Shown: positions 19,807 to 29,331 of the stretch, piece after piece
Layout: the number at the start of each line of letters is the position of its first letter
Numbering within the stretch: the first letter of the stretch is position 1
NCBI RefSeq assembly: GCF_000296695.1
Contig: NZ_BAFK01000008.1
Coordinates: 62,001 to 126,000, forward strand
DNA: 64,000 nucleotides
Direction: 5' to 3'
Source: Rheinheimera nanhaiensis E407-8
GTDB taxonomy: Bacteria; Pseudomonadota; Gammaproteobacteria; Enterobacterales; Alteromonadaceae
Made by a program: the position numbers and the translations under genes
Notes under the pieces: model-generated
Databases searched by the model: none
What the model was told of the DNA's origin: nothing
What the model saw: only the letters and a program-made list of their open reading frames with translations

Positions 19807-19821
19807 ACCAACGGCTACAAG

Positions 19822-19852
19822 ACAAAGGCGCCATAGGGCGCCTTTGTTGTTT
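19822..19852 (+). terminator. intrinsic terminator after the MFS sugar transporter
   Basis: An 11-bp perfect stem, ACAAAGGCGCC (19822-19832) with GGCGCCTTTGT (19837-19847), loop ATAG, then TGTTT. It begins 16 bases past the stop codon. Confidence 0.8.
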
Positions 19853-20011
19853 CTGATGCATTGTTGTTACTGCCAAAACCGCTGCGTCTTATTTTGTCGC
19901 AGTGTGGGTTAAGCTGACAGCATCTTTAGTGGAGGTGTTAAGTCAGACCCGATTGTAGCGTTAAGTTGCATTGTGTATAACAAAACCATTGGCATAAAAA
20001 CAGGATCAATA

Positions 20012-20759
20012 ATGGCCGCCGCGTCCAGCCAAAACACTATCGCCCGTCAGTGGCAATTGCTAAAACTTATCCCGACACGTCCGCCGGGCTCAGAGGCAAA
20101 GCTATTAACCCAGCAATACCTTGCAGTCACTACAAAGCAGTAATGCCAGTGCGCGCTGGCCAGACAAAGTGGCCAGTGTAACGGCTGATATGCACCTGCT
20201 GGCACCGAAAATAGACAGCGAAATACTGCAGCAGGTTCAACAAGCCCTGCTGGACGATAAGCAGCTTGAGGTGAGTTACCACGCCTTACATCAAGATGCC
20301 GTGAAACAATACCGCTTAAATCCGTTAGCGCTGGTGCAGCGCGGCCAGATAAGTTATCTGATTGCCAGTGCCGAGCCTTACACCGACCCACTACGCTTTG
20401 CCATTCACCGCTTTGTGCAAGTAGAGATAACCGACAGCGCCGTAGTGACGCCGCCCGGTTTTAACCTGCAGCGTTACTTAGCCAGTGGCGCGATGGAGTT
20501 TAGCGAAGGCGACACAATCAAGCTGGAGTTTCTTGCCAAGCCGGTGTTAGCCAACCTGCTGCTGGAAACGCCGTTATCGGTTGATATGACCTGCGATAAA
20601 TTAGATAACGGCGACTATCACATCAGCGCCACTGTGCATAAAGGCTGGCAGCTGAATTTATGGCTGATGTCGCAAAGTAGTTATTTAACCGTACTGGCAC
20701 CGCAAGAGATGCGGGAAAGTATCAAGCAGCGGTTGGCAGACGCGTTGGCGAAGTACTAA
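20012..20759 (+). pseudogene. WYL-domain transcriptional regulator with internal deletion and frameshift
   Basis: Two pieces in different frames. The first, from ATG 20012 (AGGA at 20002-20005), encodes MAASSQNTIARQWQLLKLIP and the start of the DeoR-like helix-turn-helix, then runs to a stop near 20143. The second, from about 20119 to 20759, encodes the linker QSLQSSNASARWPDKVASV and the full WYL ligand-binding domain (SYHALHQDAVKQYRLNPLALVQRGQISYLIA, FAIHRFVQVEI) and C-terminal extension. About 90 residues usually present between them, containing most of the HTH and its first linker, are absent. The WYL half alone (from a TTG at 20121) could be translated but would lack DNA binding. Intact relatives are about 320 residues. 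Confidence 0.75.
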
Positions 20760-20788
20760 ATCTTACTTATTAAAAAAGGAAGAAAATT

Positions 20789-21385
20789 ATGAAGTCATCA
20801 AAGAAAAACAGATTGAACGTCATTGAGCAAGCTATAAAGGACGCGCATGCATACGCTTTAGAGCATTGTGGAGTGCCGCTAAACAAAATGCCGGAATATT
20901 TCCTTGGCGTAGAAATTGGCAAACGCATGATTCAGGAGTTTGACAATTTTAGTGTTCGCTTTGAGATGAGTGTTAAACAGCTGATGGCGCAAGCGGGGAT
21001 TGAATCCGCTGGCGATAAATCTGATAGGGAAAATGGTCGTTTTGACTTAGTGTTGCTGACTAAGCGTTATGGGAAGCCGGCGCATGTGATTGAAATTAAG
21101 AGAGGCGTTAAGACTGATAGTATGCTCTCAGATATCAAACGATTAGCCAATATTTGCCGTTACTCAAAGGTTGGTGCTCGACTAGAAACCAATTATTTTG
21201 TTGCGATTACAAGACGCAGCTCAACTGTAGTTGCAGAACGAGGTAAAGTGCTATTTGCCAAGAGCTCTGAAACTGGATGTTTAGACAATATTACCGTTGA
21301 TAAATCCAGAGTGTTCAATTTAGATACTCCTGATGGTAAGTCGGTAACAGCGGCAATTTACGAGGTAACTTACCAATATAATTGA
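20789..21385 (+). CDS. unknown protein with nuclease-like D...ExK pattern
   Basis: 198 residues, lower GC than the surrounding core genes, which suggests transfer. An excellent ribosome site (AAAAAAGGAAG) precedes the ATG. I do not recognise the family. The segment GRFDLVLLTKRYGKPAHVIEIKRG has the spacing of a PD-(D/E)xK nuclease core (D86, E102, K104, strands on both sides), and LGVEIGKRM upstream could supply the helix glutamate. No signal peptide or membrane segment. It follows the broken WYL regulator by 29 bases and faces the Fic gene convergently. The nuclease reading is an inference from pattern only. Confidence 0.6.
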   Translation: MKSSKKNRLNVIEQAIKDAHAYALEHCGVPLNKMPEYFLGVEIGKRMIQEFDNFSVRFEMSVKQLMAQAGIESAGDKSDRENGRFDLVLLTKRYGKPAHVIEIKRGVKTDSMLSDIKRLANICRYSKVGARLETNYFVAITRRSSTVVAERGKVLFAKSSETGCLDNITVDKSRVFNLDTPDGKSVTAAIYEVTYQYN

Positions 21386-21399
21386 AATGGGTGATAAAG

Positions 21400-22380
21400 T
21401 TACAGCACCTGCCAATGGCCGCCTTTGCGCGGGCCGATAAATTTAAGCTTGCCCTCGCGTTGCAGTTTTGCGGCAGCGCGCTCTACCGCACTGACAGACT
21501 TACCAATATGGATGGCAATTTCCGCCAGCGTTAGCTCAGGCTGTGCTGAGAGAAGCTCTAGTATTTTTACCGGCGTTTTTGCCTGCGTTTTTACCAGCGT
21601 TTTGCTAAGGGTACTTTGTTCTGTTTGAATCGCCTGTAACAGCGCGGTTTTGATGCTTTCCAGCAAAAACACAATAAATTCAGAGCAATCTGCGGTCTTA
21701 TCTGCCTGGTTTAGCAAACGGTAATAATCGGCCTGCTGATGTTTAATTAAGCTTTCTACCGGCAAATAGGCCAGTGCGGGTTGCCATTTACTTAAGATCA
21801 GCGTTTGCCATAAGCGGCCCATGCGGCCGTTGCCATCGCTAAAGGGGTGAATAAACTCAAACTCATAATGGAATGCACAAGAGGCGATAAGCGGATGGGC
21901 ATCGCTGTTTTTCAGCCAATCGAGTAATTGTGTGAGCAGTAGCGGTACTCTGCCGGCAGGTGGCGCCATATGCACCAGACGTTTACCCTGATAAACACCT
22001 ACATCCGAAGAGCGAATACGACCAGCATCGTCTGCCAAACCGTGCAGCAGTATATTATGCGCTGCGAGTAAATCGGCCTGCTTATGTGGCTGCCAGCCTG
22101 GCATCGCATCATAAGCAGCAAAGGCGTTTTTAACTTCCTGCACGTCTTTGGGTGGGCCAAGTACGGTTTTGCCGTCCAGCACTGCCGTTACCTGTTCCAG
22201 AGTCAGGGTATTTTGCTCTATGGCTAATGATGCCTGTATGGTTTTAATCCGGTTACCACGGCGTAATTGCGGCACCAGCTCACCACCCTGCGCAGTGTTC
22301 CAAATGCCGATAAGCTCAGCAATATCGGCAACCAGCGATAGCATAGGGTGGGTGAGGTTAAACGGCGGCTGGTAGGGCAT
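21400..22380 (-). CDS. Fic domain protein (AMP-transferase type) with C-terminal winged helix
   Basis: 326 residues. The Fic active motif HPFSDGNGRMGR spans H178 to R189, complete for AMP transfer to target hydroxyls. An N-terminal inhibitory-helix motif SLAIEQNTLT (S51, E55) is present, as in class II Fic proteins, so the protein is probably self-inhibited. The C-terminus (about 275-326, ELTLAEIAIHIGKSVSAVERAAAKLQREGKL) is a winged helix-turn-helix. This architecture (Fic_N, Fic, wHTH) is widespread and usually chromosomal. Its start lies one base from the stop of the caspase-like gene upstream, so they are cotranscribed. Confidence 0.92.
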   Translation of the reverse strand: MPYQPPFNLTHPMLSLVADIAELIGIWNTAQGGELVPQLRRGNRIKTIQASLAIEQNTLTLEQVTAVLDGKTVLGPPKDVQEVKNAFAAYDAMPGWQPHKQADLLAAHNILLHGLADDAGRIRSSDVGVYQGKRLVHMAPPAGRVPLLLTQLLDWLKNSDAHPLIASCAFHYEFEFIHPFSDGNGRMGRLWQTLILSKWQPALAYLPVESLIKHQQADYYRLLNQADKTADCSEFIVFLLESIKTALLQAIQTEQSTLSKTLVKTQAKTPVKILELLSAQPELTLAEIAIHIGKSVSAVERAAAKLQREGKLKFIGPRKGGHWQVL

Positions 22381-22381
22381 G

Positions 22382-22963
22382 TTAAAACATCAACATGGGG
22401 TGCTTTTTAACATGACTCTCATTCATGTTCTTCATGAACATGGTATTTTCCTTGAATGCTTCAAAGTCGCTTTCTGTAAAGTTATCTTTTTTATACAGAG
22501 CTTTTTCTATTGAACTCAAAAGTATGGATTCGTATAAGAAGCAGTATCTGTCGGCCATCAGATGTTGATAAGAAAATAAACGTTTTGCCTGAAAATAATC
22601 TTTGAGTTGGTCACTGGTTTTTGAAGCTTTTCCAATCAAACAGCTTGAGAAAATAATGTATTTACTATGGTTCTTGGGATGTATTTCGTTTAAACCATCT
22701 CCACATATGCCGTCAAGGCAGTCACCGTTAGAAAGAAAAAAGCCGCTTTCGTTGCCATGCCCAGAAAAAATAATGACATCCTCCTTAATTTTTCTGGACA
22801 TTAAGAAGTTAAGATCTGCATAAGAGTGAATCCGTTCATGAGAAAACGGCCAACCTGCCGATTTGCAAAATGGTTTCCAAAAGTCTGCGGAGTTCCGGGA
22901 TACAGTATCTTTTAGTTTTCTATCGTCGAGAATAGTGTCAAACACCCTAACACTGATAGTCAT
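22382..22963 (-). CDS. small caspase-like (CHAT/C14-type) cysteine protease candidate
   Basis: 193 residues, low GC, not assigned to a named family. A hydrophobic strand ends in a His-Gly (VIIFSGHGNESG, H69) and about 40 residues on a second strand ends in a Cys (YIIFSSCLIG, C108). That His/Cys pair with these strands is the catalytic signature of the caspase/gingipain/CHAT fold. A short N-terminal region (VRVFDTILDDRKL) could be strand 1. There is no fused effector or sensor domain, and no signal peptide. It is upstream of, and cotranscribed with, the Fic gene. The protease assignment is inferred from motif spacing; the partner or substrate is unknown. Confidence 0.55.
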   Translation of the reverse strand: MTISVRVFDTILDDRKLKDTVSRNSADFWKPFCKSAGWPFSHERIHSYADLNFLMSRKIKEDVIIFSGHGNESGFFLSNGDCLDGICGDGLNEIHPKNHSKYIIFSSCLIGKASKTSDQLKDYFQAKRLFSYQHLMADRYCFLYESILLSSIEKALYKKDNFTESDFEAFKENTMFMKNMNESHVKKHPMLMF

Positions 22964-23082
22964 ATCTTTATCCTTTTTTATTTTTGAACGTCACGCTAAA
23001 AATGCAGTAGTTGTGTAACTCCAAGCGTCGATAAAACTCTATCTCAGTAGTCTGACTTAAGCAATTTTCATTATTGGGTAAT

Positions 23083-24024
23083 TCAACAACTGGCTTCTGA
23101 GCCAGCTGCGTCCTCAAACCCAAATTCCACCGCCAAACTCAGCATGGTTAATGCGGCGATACAATCTTTGCGGGTCATAAAATAATCCAGGCCGGCATAT
23201 TCATCTTCCAGCTTGATCTGTAATTCGGTGATCTCGCCGGGCTCCAGGCGGCTGCGGGCGGCGAGGTAGAAGATATGTTGCAGTTCCAGCTGGTGCAGAT
23301 GCTGCCACAGCCAGTCTTTACCGTAGTGGCAGACGCAGTGGTATTGCAGCTGGCGGCGCAGTGCCAGTTCCAGGGCTGGCATCAGGGTGAAGCTGGCATT
23401 TGGCTTCAGGGCAATTTGCTGTAATGCCGGGTGTTGTGGCTGTAATTGCTGTATTAATAGCACTGCCAACAAGATTTGCCTGAACTGGCTATATAGCGTT
23501 TTGGCCAGAGTACGGCTTTCGGTAAGCATGTGCTGATGCTGGGCTTCGTCCCATGCCGCATTGTCATCAGTGTCACTGTCTGCCGATGCTGGGTATATAT
23601 GCTCTGCTGTCCATAGCAGTGCTTGCTCTAGCTGCTGGTAAAATTCGGCTGGCAGGGCATTGATATCATGGTAAGGCAAGCAGCCATGCAAATAGATATG
23701 CTGCAGGGCGTTGTCCAGCCAGTGCCACTGGCTTGGCTCTGGGGTTAAGTTTTGCTCTGTTGTCAGCTGGTTGAGCATGGCCTGACACAGTTGCTGCGCA
23801 GTGCTATCTAGCGGCTGCGTCAGGGTATAGCAGGCTAATCTGATTAGCACTATGTCTGCGGCCAGCGGCTGCTGATTTTGCTGCATAGCAAGCAGTTGGT
23901 TAAAGCCGGGGCATTCCAGACTGATGCTATAAACAGAGCTGGGCTCTGCTTCAGCCTGAGGGGCAAAACGGCCATGTTGCCACAGGGTAAAGATGTCAAT
24001 GCGCTCGGTGCAGTAGCCACACAT
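23083..24024 (-). CDS. unknown cytoplasmic protein with N-terminal CxxC
   Basis: 313 residues, not recognised. It opens MCGYCTERIDIFTLW with a CxxC pair, then is largely helical and rich in glutamine and leucine (QQLQPQHPALQQIALKP, LWQHLHQLELQHIFYLAARSRLEPGE). A late segment ITELQIKLEDEYAGLDYFMTRKDCIAAL may form an amphipathic helix pair. No signal peptide or membrane helix. GC and codon use match the chromosome. It stands alone between the caspase-like gene and a divergent small gene. It may be a substrate-recognition or regulatory protein, but nothing in the sequence decides this. Confidence 0.6.
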   Translation of the reverse strand: MCGYCTERIDIFTLWQHGRFAPQAEAEPSSVYSISLECPGFNQLLAMQQNQQPLAADIVLIRLACYTLTQPLDSTAQQLCQAMLNQLTTEQNLTPEPSQWHWLDNALQHIYLHGCLPYHDINALPAEFYQQLEQALLWTAEHIYPASADSDTDDNAAWDEAQHQHMLTESRTLAKTLYSQFRQILLAVLLIQQLQPQHPALQQIALKPNASFTLMPALELALRRQLQYHCVCHYGKDWLWQHLHQLELQHIFYLAARSRLEPGEITELQIKLEDEYAGLDYFMTRKDCIAALTMLSLAVEFGFEDAAGSEASC

Positions 24025-24131
24025 AGTGCTGTCTCAATTTCGCGGGTGTATAGCCACACTCTAGTAGCGCTGTGCGACATATTGCGTCGTAGCTGCGGTT
24101 ATAGTGGAAAAAAGCGGATTAAGGCGGAAAT

Positions 24132-24440
24132 ATGGTGGCGTTAAAGTGTGAAAATCAGCAGCTTTATTGCTGCGAGGCGATGTTAAAGCACGATGTGTTT
24201 GTCCTGACACCTGATATCGATGCTAAGCACTGGCGTTTGTATAGCGCGGCTAAATATCTGGCGCTGCAGCAAAAGCTGCTGGTAGCAGATGCGCAGTTGG
24301 GGGCAGAGAACAGTGCCAGACTAGCACATATTATGCGTGGTAGCTGTCTTGAGCTGCAGCGGCAGGGCAATGTTATCCCCTTGTCTGATAACTTTACTGA
24401 ATATCATGCCGAACTTCAGGTTGTCTGGCTGCCAGACTAA
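24132..24440 (+). CDS. unknown small protein
   Basis: 102 residues, not recognised. It has a CC pair (LYCCEAML) and another cysteine in MRGSCLELQRQGN; no signal peptide or membrane segment. The ATG follows AGGCGGAAAT. It ends 13 bases from the convergent VOC gene. Divergent from the 313-residue gene. Could be a small regulator; the support is ribosome site and ordinary codon use only. Confidence 0.45.
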   Translation: MVALKCENQQLYCCEAMLKHDVFVLTPDIDAKHWRLYSAAKYLALQQKLLVADAQLGAENSARLAHIMRGSCLELQRQGNVIPLSDNFTEYHAELQVVWLPD

Positions 24441-24453
24441 ACCGAGTAAGCGC

Positions 24454-24825
24454 TCAGCGATGCTGATCCAGCATAATCTGATTGCCGTCCGGGTCTTGCA
24501 GTACAATATGTGCCGGCCCGGTGGAGCTTGCATCGGCGCTTTGTAGCAGGGTAATGCCCTGCGCCAGTAAATGCTGCTGAATCGCGCGGACATCGGTAAA
24601 TTCGGCCAGGTTTTGCGCGTTTTGATCCCAGCCCGGATTAAAGGTCAGGATATTCTTCTCGAACATGCCTTGAAACAAGCCAATTACGGTGTCGCCGTTT
24701 TTTAACATCAGCCAGCCCTGGCTTTGCTCGCCACCCATGGTAGTAAAGCCAAGTTTTTCATAAAAGGCTTTTGAGGCGGCAATATCTTTTACCGCCAAAC
24801 TGACCGAAAAAGCGCCTAGTTGCAT
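24454..24825 (-). CDS. VOC (glyoxalase/bleomycin-resistance fold) protein
   Basis: 123 residues. Two beta-alpha-beta-beta-beta units are recognisable: GAFSVSLAVKDIAASKAFYEKLGFTTMGG and, in the second half, STGPAHIVLQDPDGNQIMLDQH. The final DPDGN-x-I block is the usual metal-site strand of the family. Members include dioxygenases, glyoxalase I and antibiotic-binding proteins; substrate is not predictable. Monocistronic. Confidence 0.85.
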   Translation of the reverse strand: MQLGAFSVSLAVKDIAASKAFYEKLGFTTMGGEQSQGWLMLKNGDTVIGLFQGMFEKNILTFNPGWDQNAQNLAEFTDVRAIQQHLLAQGITLLQSADASSTGPAHIVLQDPDGNQIMLDQHR

Positions 24826-24856
24826 AACCGTATCCTTAGTGATTTTTTAGCCAAGT

Positions 24857-24893
24857 CTAGCCGCGGTTATAAGCTTCTGCCAGATAGTGTTTT
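24857..24893 (-). repeat. left direct repeat: 3' end of a DUF5655-type gene
   Basis: Minus-strand reading gives AKHYLAEAYNRG and a TAG stop, the same C-terminus as the complete DUF4287/DUF5655 gene at 27100. 29 consecutive bases (24861-24889) are identical to 27104-27132. Nothing else of the gene remains on this side. With the copy at 27100 it brackets the 699-residue gene. Confidence 0.8.
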
Positions 24894-24900
24894 GCCTTTA

Positions 24901-24929
24901 GCCAGCAAATAATCTGATTATCTGCTGGC
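24901..24929. terminator. hairpin downstream of the 699-residue gene
   Basis: GCCAGCAAATAATC (24901-24914) pairs with GATTATCTGCTGGC (24916-24929) with one mismatch and almost no loop. It lies 33 bases beyond the stop of the gene at 24962. No good T tract follows on the minus strand, so it may be a cruciform or recombination site instead of a terminator. Confidence 0.4.
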
Positions 24930-24961
24930 AGACCTGCTCTGGTTACATAGGCAGAAGCTTC

Positions 24962-27061
24962 CTAATGTAAAAAACGAATTTTGTTTATTTTTGCCCCTGG
25001 GGGAGGTATCAGCCTTTGATCGAGAGATATCAGTTGCTGATAAACCTGCGGCCGGAACTTCTGCAATCTCACGATACGGCTAAAGTGATTAGGTTCGAGA
25101 GTAGTTACCATAGGCAGAATATCCTTTATTCTGGGGTGTAACCGCTTATGCTGATAACTGTCGTCTAAAAGCAAGTCAAGCACATCAAGCCCCAATTTTT
25201 CTGTCTCTGTGGTGTAGCCATTTGCCAGTAAAAATTTAACTGCGTCATCTGAATGGCGTACCGCAGCTGTAAACATATCATTGCCAAACCGGTCTTGTAC
25301 TGAAAAGTCAAATGTAGCACTGTAAAGTTGTTGCCATTTTTCCAGACTGAGATAAGTAAACATCATCAGGCTTGAAGGCGGCAAGGGTGATAGCCGGGCT
25401 TGCCACAAAGGTAATAACTCTTCAGTAAATTCTGGCAAATGTGTGAAAAGAAAATCTGTTTCGGCCTGACTAAGTGGGGTTGATATAACGAAATCAATAG
25501 CTTGTTGATATTCGTCGTTTTGTAACAGCTCAATAAAAGCGCTGCCCACATCTGCAGTGCTTGCGGTTAATGCCAGCTCGTACTCCTGCCAAATATTCAC
25601 TAATGCCGGATCAATCTGATGTAACTGCTGAGGTATATCGCCACCTCTCTGTTTGACCTCATCTATCAGCTGACGAATATTCTGCTGGTTTAAGAAACTC
25701 TCTTCAGCCAGTTTCTGCGCTTTTTGTTGCTGACAATTTGCCGATCTGTTCTCAAGCTCTTCTTTTCTGTTTTGAACCAGGTTGAGTGCTTCGGCCATCA
25801 CTACGTTTTCAGGCGGCGCAATTCGTTCATAGTGCCTACTATTGAGTAGTTCAATATTATGCAGGAAGGTTTTCAGCTGTGGCAGGGCAACTTGGGCAGA
25901 GGCAAAATACCTGCGGTTAGGAGCGTTAAATATCAAATCACCGTCGTCAGAATGAGGATCACTGATACCGTGAGCTTTGTAGCCTTTGGCTTTTAAATAT
26001 TGCAGGGTGTTTAAGTACTTCTGCGGAAACTTATCTGCCACCTGATAACTTTCAGCATCTCTTGGCAGGTGCATAATCGCTATGTCCAAGCCTGTAAGAA
26101 TGCCGGGTTCATTTGTTGGCCTGACACCATATTTTTCAAGCATATCAAGCGCAGCGACGTTGTGTTTAGCCACAGCAACATCAGCCAGGTTAGCGTATGC
26201 ATCGTGCCGGTCAAACGCAAATACCGGCATATCGCCGGGGGCAGTTGTATGTTGCAACAGTAATTGCAGATATTCCGGCGGCAGGTCATTGCTAATCGCC
26301 ACTGCAACGTCATTAACAGTAAAAGACTGTCTGGATACAGCCTGAGCAAACTCTTCAATGTTCAAATTTTTTGCTGTCAATACAAACAAAATAGACGGCG
26401 AAATAACAGGACTGCCTGCTATGGATAAAGGAGATTGAAAGTAAGTATTAAAGGTTTCATCATTGTCGAGTAGCTGATATACCTGAGCTTTATCAATGTG
26501 TTTGCTGAGGCTTAGCTCCATATTCAGCCCTGACAGCTGCCCTTCAATATTTGTCAGGCTTTCAACCAGGATAGGCAGTACTGCCTCAGACAACCCTTCA
26601 ATAACAGACACGCCTTGCCATTGCATTAATATAGCGGCAGAGCTGGTTATCTTATATTTAACCATCTCATTGTTGATTTGTGCCTGCCACAATAAGTCCT
26701 CATAGCTGCTGTAAAAGGTTTTGTACTGAGCTGAGTATGACAGCAGTTCCCGTGTAGTTTTACCCTGTTTTAACTCCTGCTGAAGTGCGGAGATCAGTAT
26801 CTGGTGAATATCATTTACTTCCCGGCTGAAAGATTGCAGATTGTCACTACATTGATTTTCATCAGCCTGCTGCTCAGTAGATGGTTTCTGTGATGTTTTT
26901 TTCTGCAAAATTGCTTGTGAAGAGTCAGCGGTGTGCGGGCTTTCCTCTGCTGTTTCTGACGGCGGTTGTACGCCAGTTTTGTTATTATTTTTTACAGAAA
27001 CTACCAACAGCAACAGACCCGCTATAACCAAAACGGCTAGCAACAGAATTTTCTTCGTCAC
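24962..27061 (-). CDS. large membrane-anchored protein with ankyrin-like repeats
   Basis: 699 residues. A single N-terminal helix (ILLLAVLVIAGLLLLVVSV, residues 5-23) anchors it, followed by a polar Ser/Thr/Gln-rich linker to about residue 70, then a long helical body. Several segments look like divergent ankyrin repeats, for example DVAVAKHNVAALDMLEKYGV and MFTAAVRHSDDAVKFLLANGY. There are no catalytic motifs I recognise. GC is lower than in neighbours. The gene is bracketed by direct repeats of the 3' end of the DUF5655-type gene, suggesting it arrived as an insert. Likely a periplasm-facing binding or scaffold protein; function unknown. Confidence 0.7.
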   Translation of the reverse strand: MTKKILLLAVLVIAGLLLLVVSVKNNNKTGVQPPSETAEESPHTADSSQAILQKKTSQKPSTEQQADENQCSDNLQSFSREVNDIHQILISALQQELKQGKTTRELLSYSAQYKTFYSSYEDLLWQAQINNEMVKYKITSSAAILMQWQGVSVIEGLSEAVLPILVESLTNIEGQLSGLNMELSLSKHIDKAQVYQLLDNDETFNTYFQSPLSIAGSPVISPSILFVLTAKNLNIEEFAQAVSRQSFTVNDVAVAISNDLPPEYLQLLLQHTTAPGDMPVFAFDRHDAYANLADVAVAKHNVAALDMLEKYGVRPTNEPGILTGLDIAIMHLPRDAESYQVADKFPQKYLNTLQYLKAKGYKAHGISDPHSDDGDLIFNAPNRRYFASAQVALPQLKTFLHNIELLNSRHYERIAPPENVVMAEALNLVQNRKEELENRSANCQQQKAQKLAEESFLNQQNIRQLIDEVKQRGGDIPQQLHQIDPALVNIWQEYELALTASTADVGSAFIELLQNDEYQQAIDFVISTPLSQAETDFLFTHLPEFTEELLPLWQARLSPLPPSSLMMFTYLSLEKWQQLYSATFDFSVQDRFGNDMFTAAVRHSDDAVKFLLANGYTTETEKLGLDVLDLLLDDSYQHKRLHPRIKDILPMVTTLEPNHFSRIVRLQKFRPQVYQQLISLDQRLIPPPGAKINKIRFLH

Positions 27062-27099
27062 TCAATTTTCCTTGTCGTTTTAAATGCTTTTGTGCTGTT

Positions 27100-27136
27100 C
27101 TAACCGCGGTTATAAGCTTCTGCCAGATAGTGCTTT
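27100..27136 (-). repeat. right direct repeat, within the intact DUF5655-type gene end
   Basis: The last 37 bases of the complete gene, including the stop TAG; 29 consecutive bases are identical to the copy at 24861-24889 and the flanking bases differ at only a few positions. The arrangement of gene end, insert, duplicated gene end resembles an attachment-site duplication. Confidence 0.75.
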
Positions 27137-27663
27137 ACGCTGTCATCGATATCAGCGGCGCTGGTAATGCGGATACGATGGCTGCACATGGCGTTAAAGC
27201 TGCCGGAGGCTTCCAGTTTTCCTGTTGGCTCTACGCCTTTTAAATTCAGACCAAGATCCAAGCGCGTTGCAGTTGACGGCTGCAACAGCGCAAATTGCTT
27301 ATTACGCCGCACACTGACATAAGCTTTTTTCGGGCTCAGTTCTATGTCGCTGCCAAGGCTTTGGATATAGCTTATCAGCACGTCGTACAACGGCTTTAAC
27401 CCAGCTTTCGCGCCGCTATATTGCGCGCTGACTAAATCTTCCGCTGTCGGCTCGCCGCCGGCGGCGACCTGTTTGGCGCGGTGGGCAATCAGGTTGGCAT
27501 TGCCGTGGCCAAGCCCGAAGTCGCTTTTTAGCCAGTTTACCAGCTCACTGTGTTTGGCAAAGTTTTGCTTCGCCGCCAGTTCCAGCCACTCTGCCTGGCT
27601 TTTGCCACTGCTTTGTTCCAGATTACGCCATTGGCTTTGTTCCGCGGCAGTTATCTCTGTCAT
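27100..27663 (-). CDS. DUF4287 plus DUF5655 protein
   Basis: 187 residues from the ATG at 27663, chosen because AAGGAG lies seven bases upstream. The N-terminal DUF4287 domain (SQAEWLELAAKQNFAKHSELVNWLKSDFGLGHGNANLIAH) is followed by DUF5655 (PLYDVLISYIQSLGSDIELSPKKAYVSVRRNKQFALLQPS...). These two small domains often occur together as stand-alone cytoplasmic proteins; DUF5655 resembles DUF1801-like beta folds. Biochemical role unknown. The neighbour at 27776 is a second DUF4287 protein and the pseudogene at 29791 a further DUF5655, so the cluster collects this family. Confidence 0.85.
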   Translation of the reverse strand: MTEITAAEQSQWRNLEQSSGKSQAEWLELAAKQNFAKHSELVNWLKSDFGLGHGNANLIAHRAKQVAAGGEPTAEDLVSAQYSGAKAGLKPLYDVLISYIQSLGSDIELSPKKAYVSVRRNKQFALLQPSTATRLDLGLNLKGVEPTGKLEASGSFNAMCSHRIRITSAADIDDSVKHYLAEAYNRG

Positions 27664-27775
27664 GGTTTTCTCCTTCACTTACAGTGGCCTGAGTTCGGCA
27701 CATGTGTATCTGGATAATACTAAACACAACGCGCTGCTCACAGGCCTGATATGGAGAATAAGTATAACAAGGGCG

Positions 27776-27985
27776 TCAGGACTTAGCCCTGTAGTAAGCC
27801 ACCAGCGCATTGGCGTGGCCATGGCCGATGCCATGTTGCGTTTTTAAAAACGCCACCTGAGCCATATGTGGCTGCTCCTGCACGTTATCCAGCAAGGTTA
27901 GCCAGTGTTGTATGCTCTGGCCGTATTTCTGTTCAATTGACGGGAAATAAGACGCCGGGCCTGTAACGGTTGGTGCTGTGCTCAT
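27776..27985 (-). CDS. single-domain DUF4287 protein
   Basis: 69 residues: a polar N-terminus and the DUF4287 helices (SIQHWLTLLDN, HMAQVAFLKTQHGIGHGHANALVAYYRA). The GHGHANA block corresponds to GHGNANL in the two-domain protein at 27100. AGGAGA precedes the ATG. Probably a paralogous half of that protein, possibly forming a complex with it. Function unknown. Confidence 0.8.
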   Translation of the reverse strand: MSTAPTVTGPASYFPSIEQKYGQSIQHWLTLLDNVQEQPHMAQVAFLKTQHGIGHGHANALVAYYRAKS

Positions 27986-28093
27986 AAGTATCTCCTGTTA
28001 GCTGAGTGTTAGCTTAGTCATATCACAGTTTAGTCGTATCACAGTTCAAGTATTCGACATAGCAATACAACATTGGCAGTAAATAGTGCCGAC

Positions 28094-28127
28094 ACCAAAT
28101 ATGCAACCATATGGTTGCATATTTGGT
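28094..28127. promoter_or_regulatory. 34-bp perfect palindrome, likely ArsR-type operator
   Basis: ACCAAATATGCAACCAT followed immediately by its exact reverse complement, with no mismatch and no spacer. It lies 55 bases upstream of the SRPBCC-ArsR operon start. It contains nested inverted repeats (GCAACC/GGTTGC and CCAAATATG/CATATTTGG), enough for two winged-helix dimers. Confidence 0.65.
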
Positions 28128-28182
28128 TGTGCTGTGCTTTTATTAAACTGTGGTGAAGATAAACTCAAGCACGGAGCAACTT

Positions 28183-28626
28183 ATGCAAAATATTATTCAG
28201 CGCGAACTGACGATTAATGCCAGCGCAGAGCGCATATACAATGCCATCGCCGCGCCGGAGCAGGTGGTAAAGTGGTTTCCTGATACCGTCAGCGGCGACT
28301 ATCGCCAGGGCGCGCAAGCGCTATTCAGCTTTGGTAGCGAACATCAAAGCAGTGTCTATATTGAAGCCGCCAGGCCGCACCATTATTTTGCCTACCGCTG
28401 GGTGCCGGGCGGCAATAATTTCACCGGCGACGTGCTAAGTGTGCCTAACACTCTGGTGGAATTTCGTATTACCGAGCTTGAGCCTGGCCGGTGTCGGGTC
28501 AGCTTAACCGAGACCGGCTTTGCTGACTTACCGGCGGAAATTGCCGCCAGCAGCTTGCAACAAAACAGCAACGGCTGGGATTTTATGCTGGGCCGGCTGC
28601 AGCAATATTTTAATGCGGAGGCCTGA
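28183..28626 (+). CDS. SRPBCC/AHSA1-type protein of an ArsR-linked operon
   Basis: 147 residues. The AHSA1-like SRPBCC pattern is clear: RELTINASAERIYNAIAAPEQVVKWF, PHHYFAYRWVPGG, LVEFRITELEPGRCRVSLTETGF and a C-terminal helix GWDFMLGRLQQYF. Such proteins bind hydrophobic small molecules. I start at ATG 28183, which has GGAGC ten bases upstream. The stop TGA shares an A with the ATG of the ArsR-type gene (28626), so translation is coupled. Pairs of this kind are common and the regulator normally controls the operon. Confidence 0.85.
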   Translation: MQNIIQRELTINASAERIYNAIAAPEQVVKWFPDTVSGDYRQGAQALFSFGSEHQSSVYIEAARPHHYFAYRWVPGGNNFTGDVLSVPNTLVEFRITELEPGRCRVSLTETGFADLPAEIAASSLQQNSNGWDFMLGRLQQYFNAEA

Positions 28627-28980: not shown

Positions 28981-29331
28981 TTACTGCCGCAGTATCTTTG
29001 CCAGCGCTTTGCCTTTAGCCAGCTCGTCTATCAGCTTGTCTAAATAGCGTATTTTTTGCATTAGCGGGTCGGTAACGTTTTCTACCCGCACACCGCAAAC
29101 GACGCCTTTAATTAGCACACAGTTCGGGTGCATGGCCGGGGCCTGCGAAAAAAAGGTAGCAAAGTCATGTTGTTGCTCAATTTGTTGCTGCAGTTCCGCC
29201 TGGCTGTAACCGGTAAGCCAGCAGATAATCTGATCCACTTCGTCTTTAGTGCGGTTTTTGCGCTCAGCCTTTTGCAGATACAGCGGGTAAACTTTGGCAA
29301 AAGGCATGCTGAAAATGCGGTGTTCGGTCAT
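28981..29331 (-). CDS. DUF2200 domain protein
   Basis: 116 residues matching DUF2200 along its whole length: [44 protein letters not shown], and the C-terminal [36 protein letters not shown]. Cytoplasmic, compact helical protein, function unknown. AGGACAACCTCC-type sequence precedes the ATG. It is part of the cluster of small accessory domains between 27 and 32 kb. Confidence 0.85.

Follow-up and report, generated by a model that had tools for sequence, protein, structure and literature searches.

A gene-end direct repeat around an accessory gene in Rheinheimera nanhaiensis looks like a scar of gene replacement

Introduction

Integrative and mobilizable elements and cis-mobilizable elements that insert at the 3' ends of genes leave the displaced gene end beyond their cargo. 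Gain of DNA can also be coupled to loss of the resident sequence. In the part of PMC3240628 that deals with homology-facilitated illegitimate recombination, by which linear DNA is joined at one end through homology and at the other illegitimately, the illegitimate junction is described as containing 3-10 bp of micro-homology, insertion with loss is reported, and the process is given as 100 to a million times rarer than homologous recombination in the species named. For T6SS/Rhs loci, the relevant part of PMC5361080 proposes displacement that leaves the 3' parts of resident genes behind as orphan 3' regions, and describes arrays of immunity genes along with these.

Here we analyze a locus of Rheinheimera nanhaiensis E407-8 in which the end of one gene is present twice, on both sides of a single large gene. 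Throughout, the window denotes the entire stretch of 64,000 nucleotides that was analyzed, and the positions are counted from its first base; the features are listed in Table 1.

Results

A duplicated gene end flanking one large gene

The 3' end of a gene coding for a protein with DUF4287 and DUF5655 domains is found at two places in the window, as a direct repeat of 38 nucleotides in which 36/38 bases are identical, with a spacing of 2243. The mismatches are confined to the edges of an exact core of 29 bases (24861-24889 and 27104-27132), and, read on the minus strand, each of the two specifies the C-terminal residues KHYLAEAYNRG and then a TAG stop codon. The original prediction, which started from 29 identical bases that flank 2.2 kb and encode the same C-terminus and stop, is accurate in this respect. 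There is no other exact direct repeat of at least 20 bases in the 64-kb window, and the 29-mer, with up to three mismatches allowed, occurs twice in the whole 3.99-Mb genome.

The right copy is the end of an intact DUF5655 gene and continues into the leader of a gene for a 699-aa protein. The left copy is joined to downstream DNA that is similar to that of relatives (TAGACTTGG...AAGGATACGGTTATG), and its continuation resembles the DNA of the genome G021 (..CGCGGCTAGACT..AAGGA..GGTTATGCAACT); because of this resemblance, we regard the left copy as the native end of the gene and assign the new downstream sequence to the right one. No decayed DUF5655 gene body was found before the left copy. The left repeat also pairs with positions 24950-24960 to form an 11-bp outer inverted repeat (GGCAGAAGCTT). 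Both window copies contain TAT at a spot where 10/10 relatives have TGG; this implies either homogenisation of the copies or a change that came first, and this shared TAT is explained for free by none of the models considered below.

Table 1. Coordinates of the repeat copies, the genes and the border features in the window
Feature	Position	Strand	Basis
Left repeat copy: remnant 3' end of a DUF5655 gene, attached to native-like DNA and then VOC	24856..24893	-	sequence comparison
Right repeat copy: 3'-terminal part of the intact DUF5655 gene, followed by the 699-aa gene's leader	27099..27136	-	sequence comparison
DUF4287 + DUF5655 gene, 192 aa, intact	27100..27678	-	Pfam PF18899 9.1e-22, PF14117 4.5e-17
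699-aa protein gene, GTG start	24962..27061	-	sole large ORF in the insert
VOC (glyoxalase-like) gene, 3' neighbour of the DUF5655 gene in relatives	24454..24825	-	Pfam PF00903 1.3e-8
Border from the 699-aa stop codon to the left repeat, 68 nt	24894..24961	.	31-genome search
Hairpin, 13-bp stem, 3-nt loop	24901..24929	.	folding

The 699-aa gene

The insert was originally described as holding a single large gene of lower GC, and this description stands: there is one ORF of 699 codons, and the GC content of 24894-27098 is about 43.5%, compared to 53.0% in the DUF5655 gene, 50.8% in the VOC gene and 51.5% in the window. The 699-aa protein contains an N-terminal hydrophobic stretch, as judged by eye, and produced no noteworthy match in Pfam (none above the cut-off), NCBIfam or PHROGs; a weak PADLOC match to Drt5 (0.0036) was not trusted. 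Sub-threshold ankyrin matches to Pfam were detected in 3/9 homologues and not in the window protein itself. The structure predicted from four sequences is poor (mean pLDDT 57.2, pTM 0.39); searching with this poor model, Foldseek returned nothing at E 0.001 or better (best 0.0073), and among the 50 matches listed many were ankyrin-repeat proteins. Judging from these features, the product is likely to be a membrane-anchored protein with ankyrin-like helical repeats.

The gene is an accessory passenger. The distribution of the family is patchy: homologues were found in 8/60 genomes and in 19/295 family genomes, in both cases counting the window, and most of the others are distant. The homologues include those of a gammaproteobacterial MAG (66% identity), Colwellia polaris (45%) and Thalassotalea litorea (47%), as well as those in three Pseudoalteromonas plasmid records (34-37%); searches of phages and viral contigs recovered none. 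The homologue in G020 (L043 4916-7823) is missing its N-terminal part and adjoins what by eye is an IS3-like transposase pair.

The uninterrupted arrangement in relatives

Orthologous DUF4287/DUF5655 genes, with 77-87% identity, were compared in seven relatives (G021, G012, G030, G026, G001, G008 and G004); a distant homologue (45%) in G018 was left out of the seven. The VOC gene lies about 30 bases past the DUF5655 stop in G021, G026 and G008, whereas in G012, G030 and G001 it is preceded by a small ORF that, by eye, probably encodes a lipoprotein. G004 also contains this small ORF after the DUF5655 gene, with no match for VOC. The VOC orthologues are 95% identical in G012 and 92% in G021. 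The 699-aa gene does not follow the DUF5655 gene in any of the seven relatives, and the arrangement in the window is, by this comparison, therefore the derived one. Thus, the DUF5655 gene followed by VOC, which the original prediction proposed to look for, exists in 3/7 relatives directly and in 3/7 via the small ORF, and the opposite outcome that it considered, retention of the 699-aa gene in place in all relatives, is seen in 0/7.

Bare DUF5655 ends in other genomes

A VOC orthologue was identified at E 1e-20 or better in 13 of the 31 genus genomes, the window genome included. Three of these genomes (G002, G028 and G015) contain no intact DUF5655 gene, yet its 3' end remains before VOC; in G007, G018 and G019, no clear DUF5655 end was seen by eye. 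In G015, 58 DUF5655 codons are left, with other genes in front; in G028, about 31 bases remain behind a 96-aa ORF; and in G002 (L099 10070-10180), an end of about 34 bases is fused to the C-terminal fragment of an AHSA1-like gene. By reading, this fusion is in frame, at CAYTGGC. In G012, which was used as a stand-in for the ancestor when judging the microhomology, the corresponding AHSA1-like gene directly precedes DUF5655, and CAYTGGC is common to both genes at the fusion point. At least one of the tail reductions, then, probably occurred by short-homology deletion.

Plasticity of the locus

In six relatives (G021, G001, G008, G002, G015 and G028), the distance between an MFS-type gene and VOC is about 50-290 bases, and amylase-like genes follow beyond the former (both identified by eye). 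The same interval measures 4.6 kb in the window (19807-24453) and is occupied by other genes, and on the opposite side of the locus, the gene sets vary between genomes. By gene content, this is a plastic, unstable accessory region.

Several other features of the neighbourhood were recorded. The accessory DNA at 19807-24453 includes a Fic-domain gene (PADLOC SoFic 2.6e-43) and a low-GC ORF of 193 aa with SGHG and SSC motifs that, by eye, resembles caspase-type peptidases. A match to the PADLOC defence candidate PDC-S18 (1.4e-8) covers the C-terminal part of the DUF4287/DUF5655 protein; the literature searched yielded no mention of DUF5655. A perfect palindrome of 17+17 bases at 28094-28127, between DUF4287 and an AHSA1/ArsR-like pair (by eye), may serve as the operator of the regulator at 28626.

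The border outside the left repeat

Outside the repeat, the border produced no match better than E 0.003 in the 31 genus genomes, the window itself aside. The near-perfect hairpin reported at the outset is present here, and a stretch of 136 nt around it folds with a z of -2.83. The hairpin was found once in the genome with up to three mismatches allowed, and it was rejected as a member of a repeat family on this count; it was also rejected as a terminator, being absent from the consensus list of terminator-like sites. A search of 24400-28400 against Rfam was without a match at E values up to 1. The boxes of the attC consensus are RYYYAAC and GTTRRRY, and no such pair 40-130 bases apart occurs in 24780-25010 or 27040-27200 on either strand, so that an integron cassette was rejected as well.

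Part of the left border (ATCAGATTATTTGCTGGCT) matches the DUF2200 gene (28981-29331) at 18/19 positions, and a 16-base stretch reaching into the repeat edge matches this gene exactly. The likeness was equalled in 0/4000 cases under one control, in 23/3000 (partly self-matches) under another, in 13/399 within 5 kb, in 53/300 when the best score anywhere in the window was taken, and in 2/300 for paired matches within 5 kb, which are not independent (palindrome). Scraps of DUF2200 in the left border are not upheld by all the controls and are not used as evidence.

An end-like stretch beside the homologue in G012

In G012, the 699-aa homologue (L035 11769-13946) has the same orientation as the DUF5655 gene, at a distance of 5.6 kb. 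A 31-base stretch just upstream of its start resembles the repeat, with 21/31 bases identical to the right copy and 22/31 to the left copy, and the adjoining leader is identical in 24/38 bases; like both window copies, the stretch contains CACTAT. A match of this quality was obtained with 16/40001 random 31-mers anywhere and with 3/40001 in register; the local score was equalled by 99/2000 shuffles, and of 110 ORF ends compared, an unrelated one tied the likeness. No DUF5655 body was found upstream of the stretch, where the scores of 13 and 11 do not exceed the null median of 13.5. The resemblance is suggestive of a DUF5655 end and the 699-aa gene having been neighbours earlier. In part, it also speaks for a travelling unit, though the homologue sits elsewhere.

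Displacement and the alternatives

On balance, we lean towards an origin of the repeat as a rearrangement scar, left by displacement of a resident gene or by a tandem duplication that later collapsed, and not as the two termini of an element that integrated here. We infer the sequence of steps, the nature of the donor DNA and the way in which the junctions formed as follows. A resident DUF4287/DUF5655 gene would once have stood directly before VOC, and the left copy would be its leftover 3' end. The incoming segment would have carried another DUF5655 copy, already followed by the 699-aa gene, and would have been placed beside the resident gene or have replaced most of it, with one junction in homologous DNA upstream and the other, illegitimate one within the 38 bases that end the resident gene, as in homology-facilitated illegitimate recombination. 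The DUF5655 copy brought in would turn the leftover tail into a direct repeat. In a variant of this scenario, a tandem duplication would have been followed by collapse through deletion.

Displacement predicts bare tails before VOC, and three are seen, at the same place and from the same gene (G002, G028 and G015), one of them a short-homology fusion; a remnant attached to its native flank is what the left copy presents, next to relatives in which the region is uninterrupted. The duplication followed by decay of one copy that the original prediction had offered as its second choice comes near to this result of the comparison, in which three other genomes carry bare tails. The instability of the locus and the end-like stretch in G012 also count in favour of displacement. 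Against it, no decayed DUF5655 body was found before the left copy or upstream of the G012 stretch, the resemblance of that stretch is weaker in some of the tests, both window copies share TAT, homology-facilitated illegitimate recombination is rare, and a plain insertion of 2.2 kb needs fewer events.

The origin of the DUF5655 gene body was examined by divergence, tree and sliding comparison, which together gave no clear sign in either direction. There is a weak hint that the body could be foreign because its third-position identity to G012 is 58%, compared to 72% for VOC. However, when G021 is the reference, the value is 61%, close to the range of 63-77% that six neighbouring genes show, and in AU tests, pairing with G012 or with G021 was not rejected (p 0.084 and 0.122), both of which count against a foreign body.

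The explanation that survives next best, although we consider it unlikely, is the insertion by single crossover of a circular or tandem fragment that contained the 699-aa gene with a gene-end-like leader, which would generate hybrid repeats on both sides. In its favour, the mismatches between the copies all lie at the borders of the 29-base core, and the related leader stretch of the G012 homologue has the CACTAT found in both window copies. A reciprocal event, however, should give one copy with TAT and one with TGG, whereas both copies have TAT, and no other doubled end was detected among the strong matches in the 31 genomes (E below 1e-3, a threshold at which weaker diverged copies could be missed).

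Still less probable is that a recombinase acting in trans integrated the segment site-specifically at a protein gene's 3' end, which would make the 699-aa gene a one-gene passenger with att sites. This was the preferred reading of the original prediction, and the geometry fits it: a gene-end repeat flanks the cargo, the intact end stands on one side and the displaced end on the other, and the insert is of lower GC. The genome also contains nine PF00589 (tyrosine recombinase) matches over the cut-off elsewhere, some of which may be housekeeping recombinases. However, 0/9 of these are on this contig, and no integrase was found by the PF00589 search in or next to the insert, where the one large ORF is without a Pfam match above the cut-off. 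Among the strong matches, the doubled end is present in 1/31 genus genomes, that of the window, and the search for the same 3' end doubled around other cargo thus returned the window genome alone. The gene-end pattern is without a match in viral contigs, and the 38 bases are without one in plasmids and phages. Finally, 0/8 distinct other loci of the family contain an exact direct repeat of more than 10 bases between their 500-base flanks; in this comparison of nine rows, one sequence was represented twice, the copy in G020 and weaker homologues were left out, the flanks at L052 and L055 were counted from a match that starts inside the gene, and diverged or more distant repeats would escape it. 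The integrase-type reading accordingly gained no support from these searches.

An old duplication (DUF5655a - 699-aa gene - DUF5655b - VOC) followed by reciprocal loss, such that the window kept a and the tail of b and G012 kept b and the tail of a, appears improbable. The faint end-like stretch before the 699-aa gene in G012 agrees with it, as does the intact DUF5655 gene of G012 before the small ORF and VOC, all on one strand, but 36/38 identical ends are unexpected from an old duplication without gene conversion, and a decayed gene body was not detected in G012. Equally doubtful, in our judgement, is a reading in which the 699-aa gene travels as a unit by itself and has a leader that mimics the 3' end of DUF4287/DUF5655, so that it could settle harmlessly behind the DUF5655 gene by means of a trans recombinase or a short-homology crossover; the end-like stretch in G012 would then mark a second, displaced copy.

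Discussion

Altogether, the locus looks like an ordinary gene-replacement scar in an often reshuffled stretch of the chromosome, and not like a new kind of mobile element. By itself, the finding alters little. It suggests that a gene-end direct repeat around cargo, which is usually read as site-specific integration, can also mark displacement, and, with the bare tails in three relatives, the locus is a small natural record of such losses.

With integrative and mobilizable elements and cis-mobilizable elements, the locus shares a displaced gene end beyond the cargo. Unlike these, the insert is without a recognised recombinase or transfer gene, and a second example was not found at the site. The T6SS/Rhs loci, as far as they are treated in the relevant part of PMC5361080, differ in that no effector or immunity genes are recognised here and only 38 bases are left, too short for a working gene; the likeness is that a module displaces the resident gene, and its 3' part is left downstream. 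In comparison with homology-facilitated illegitimate recombination as set out in the pertinent part of PMC3240628, the incoming DNA at this locus would itself have contained a copy of the gene that it displaced. The other traits would be alike: insertion accompanied by loss, junctions of short homology, as seen here at the G002 fusion, and partial replacement of the resident sequence.
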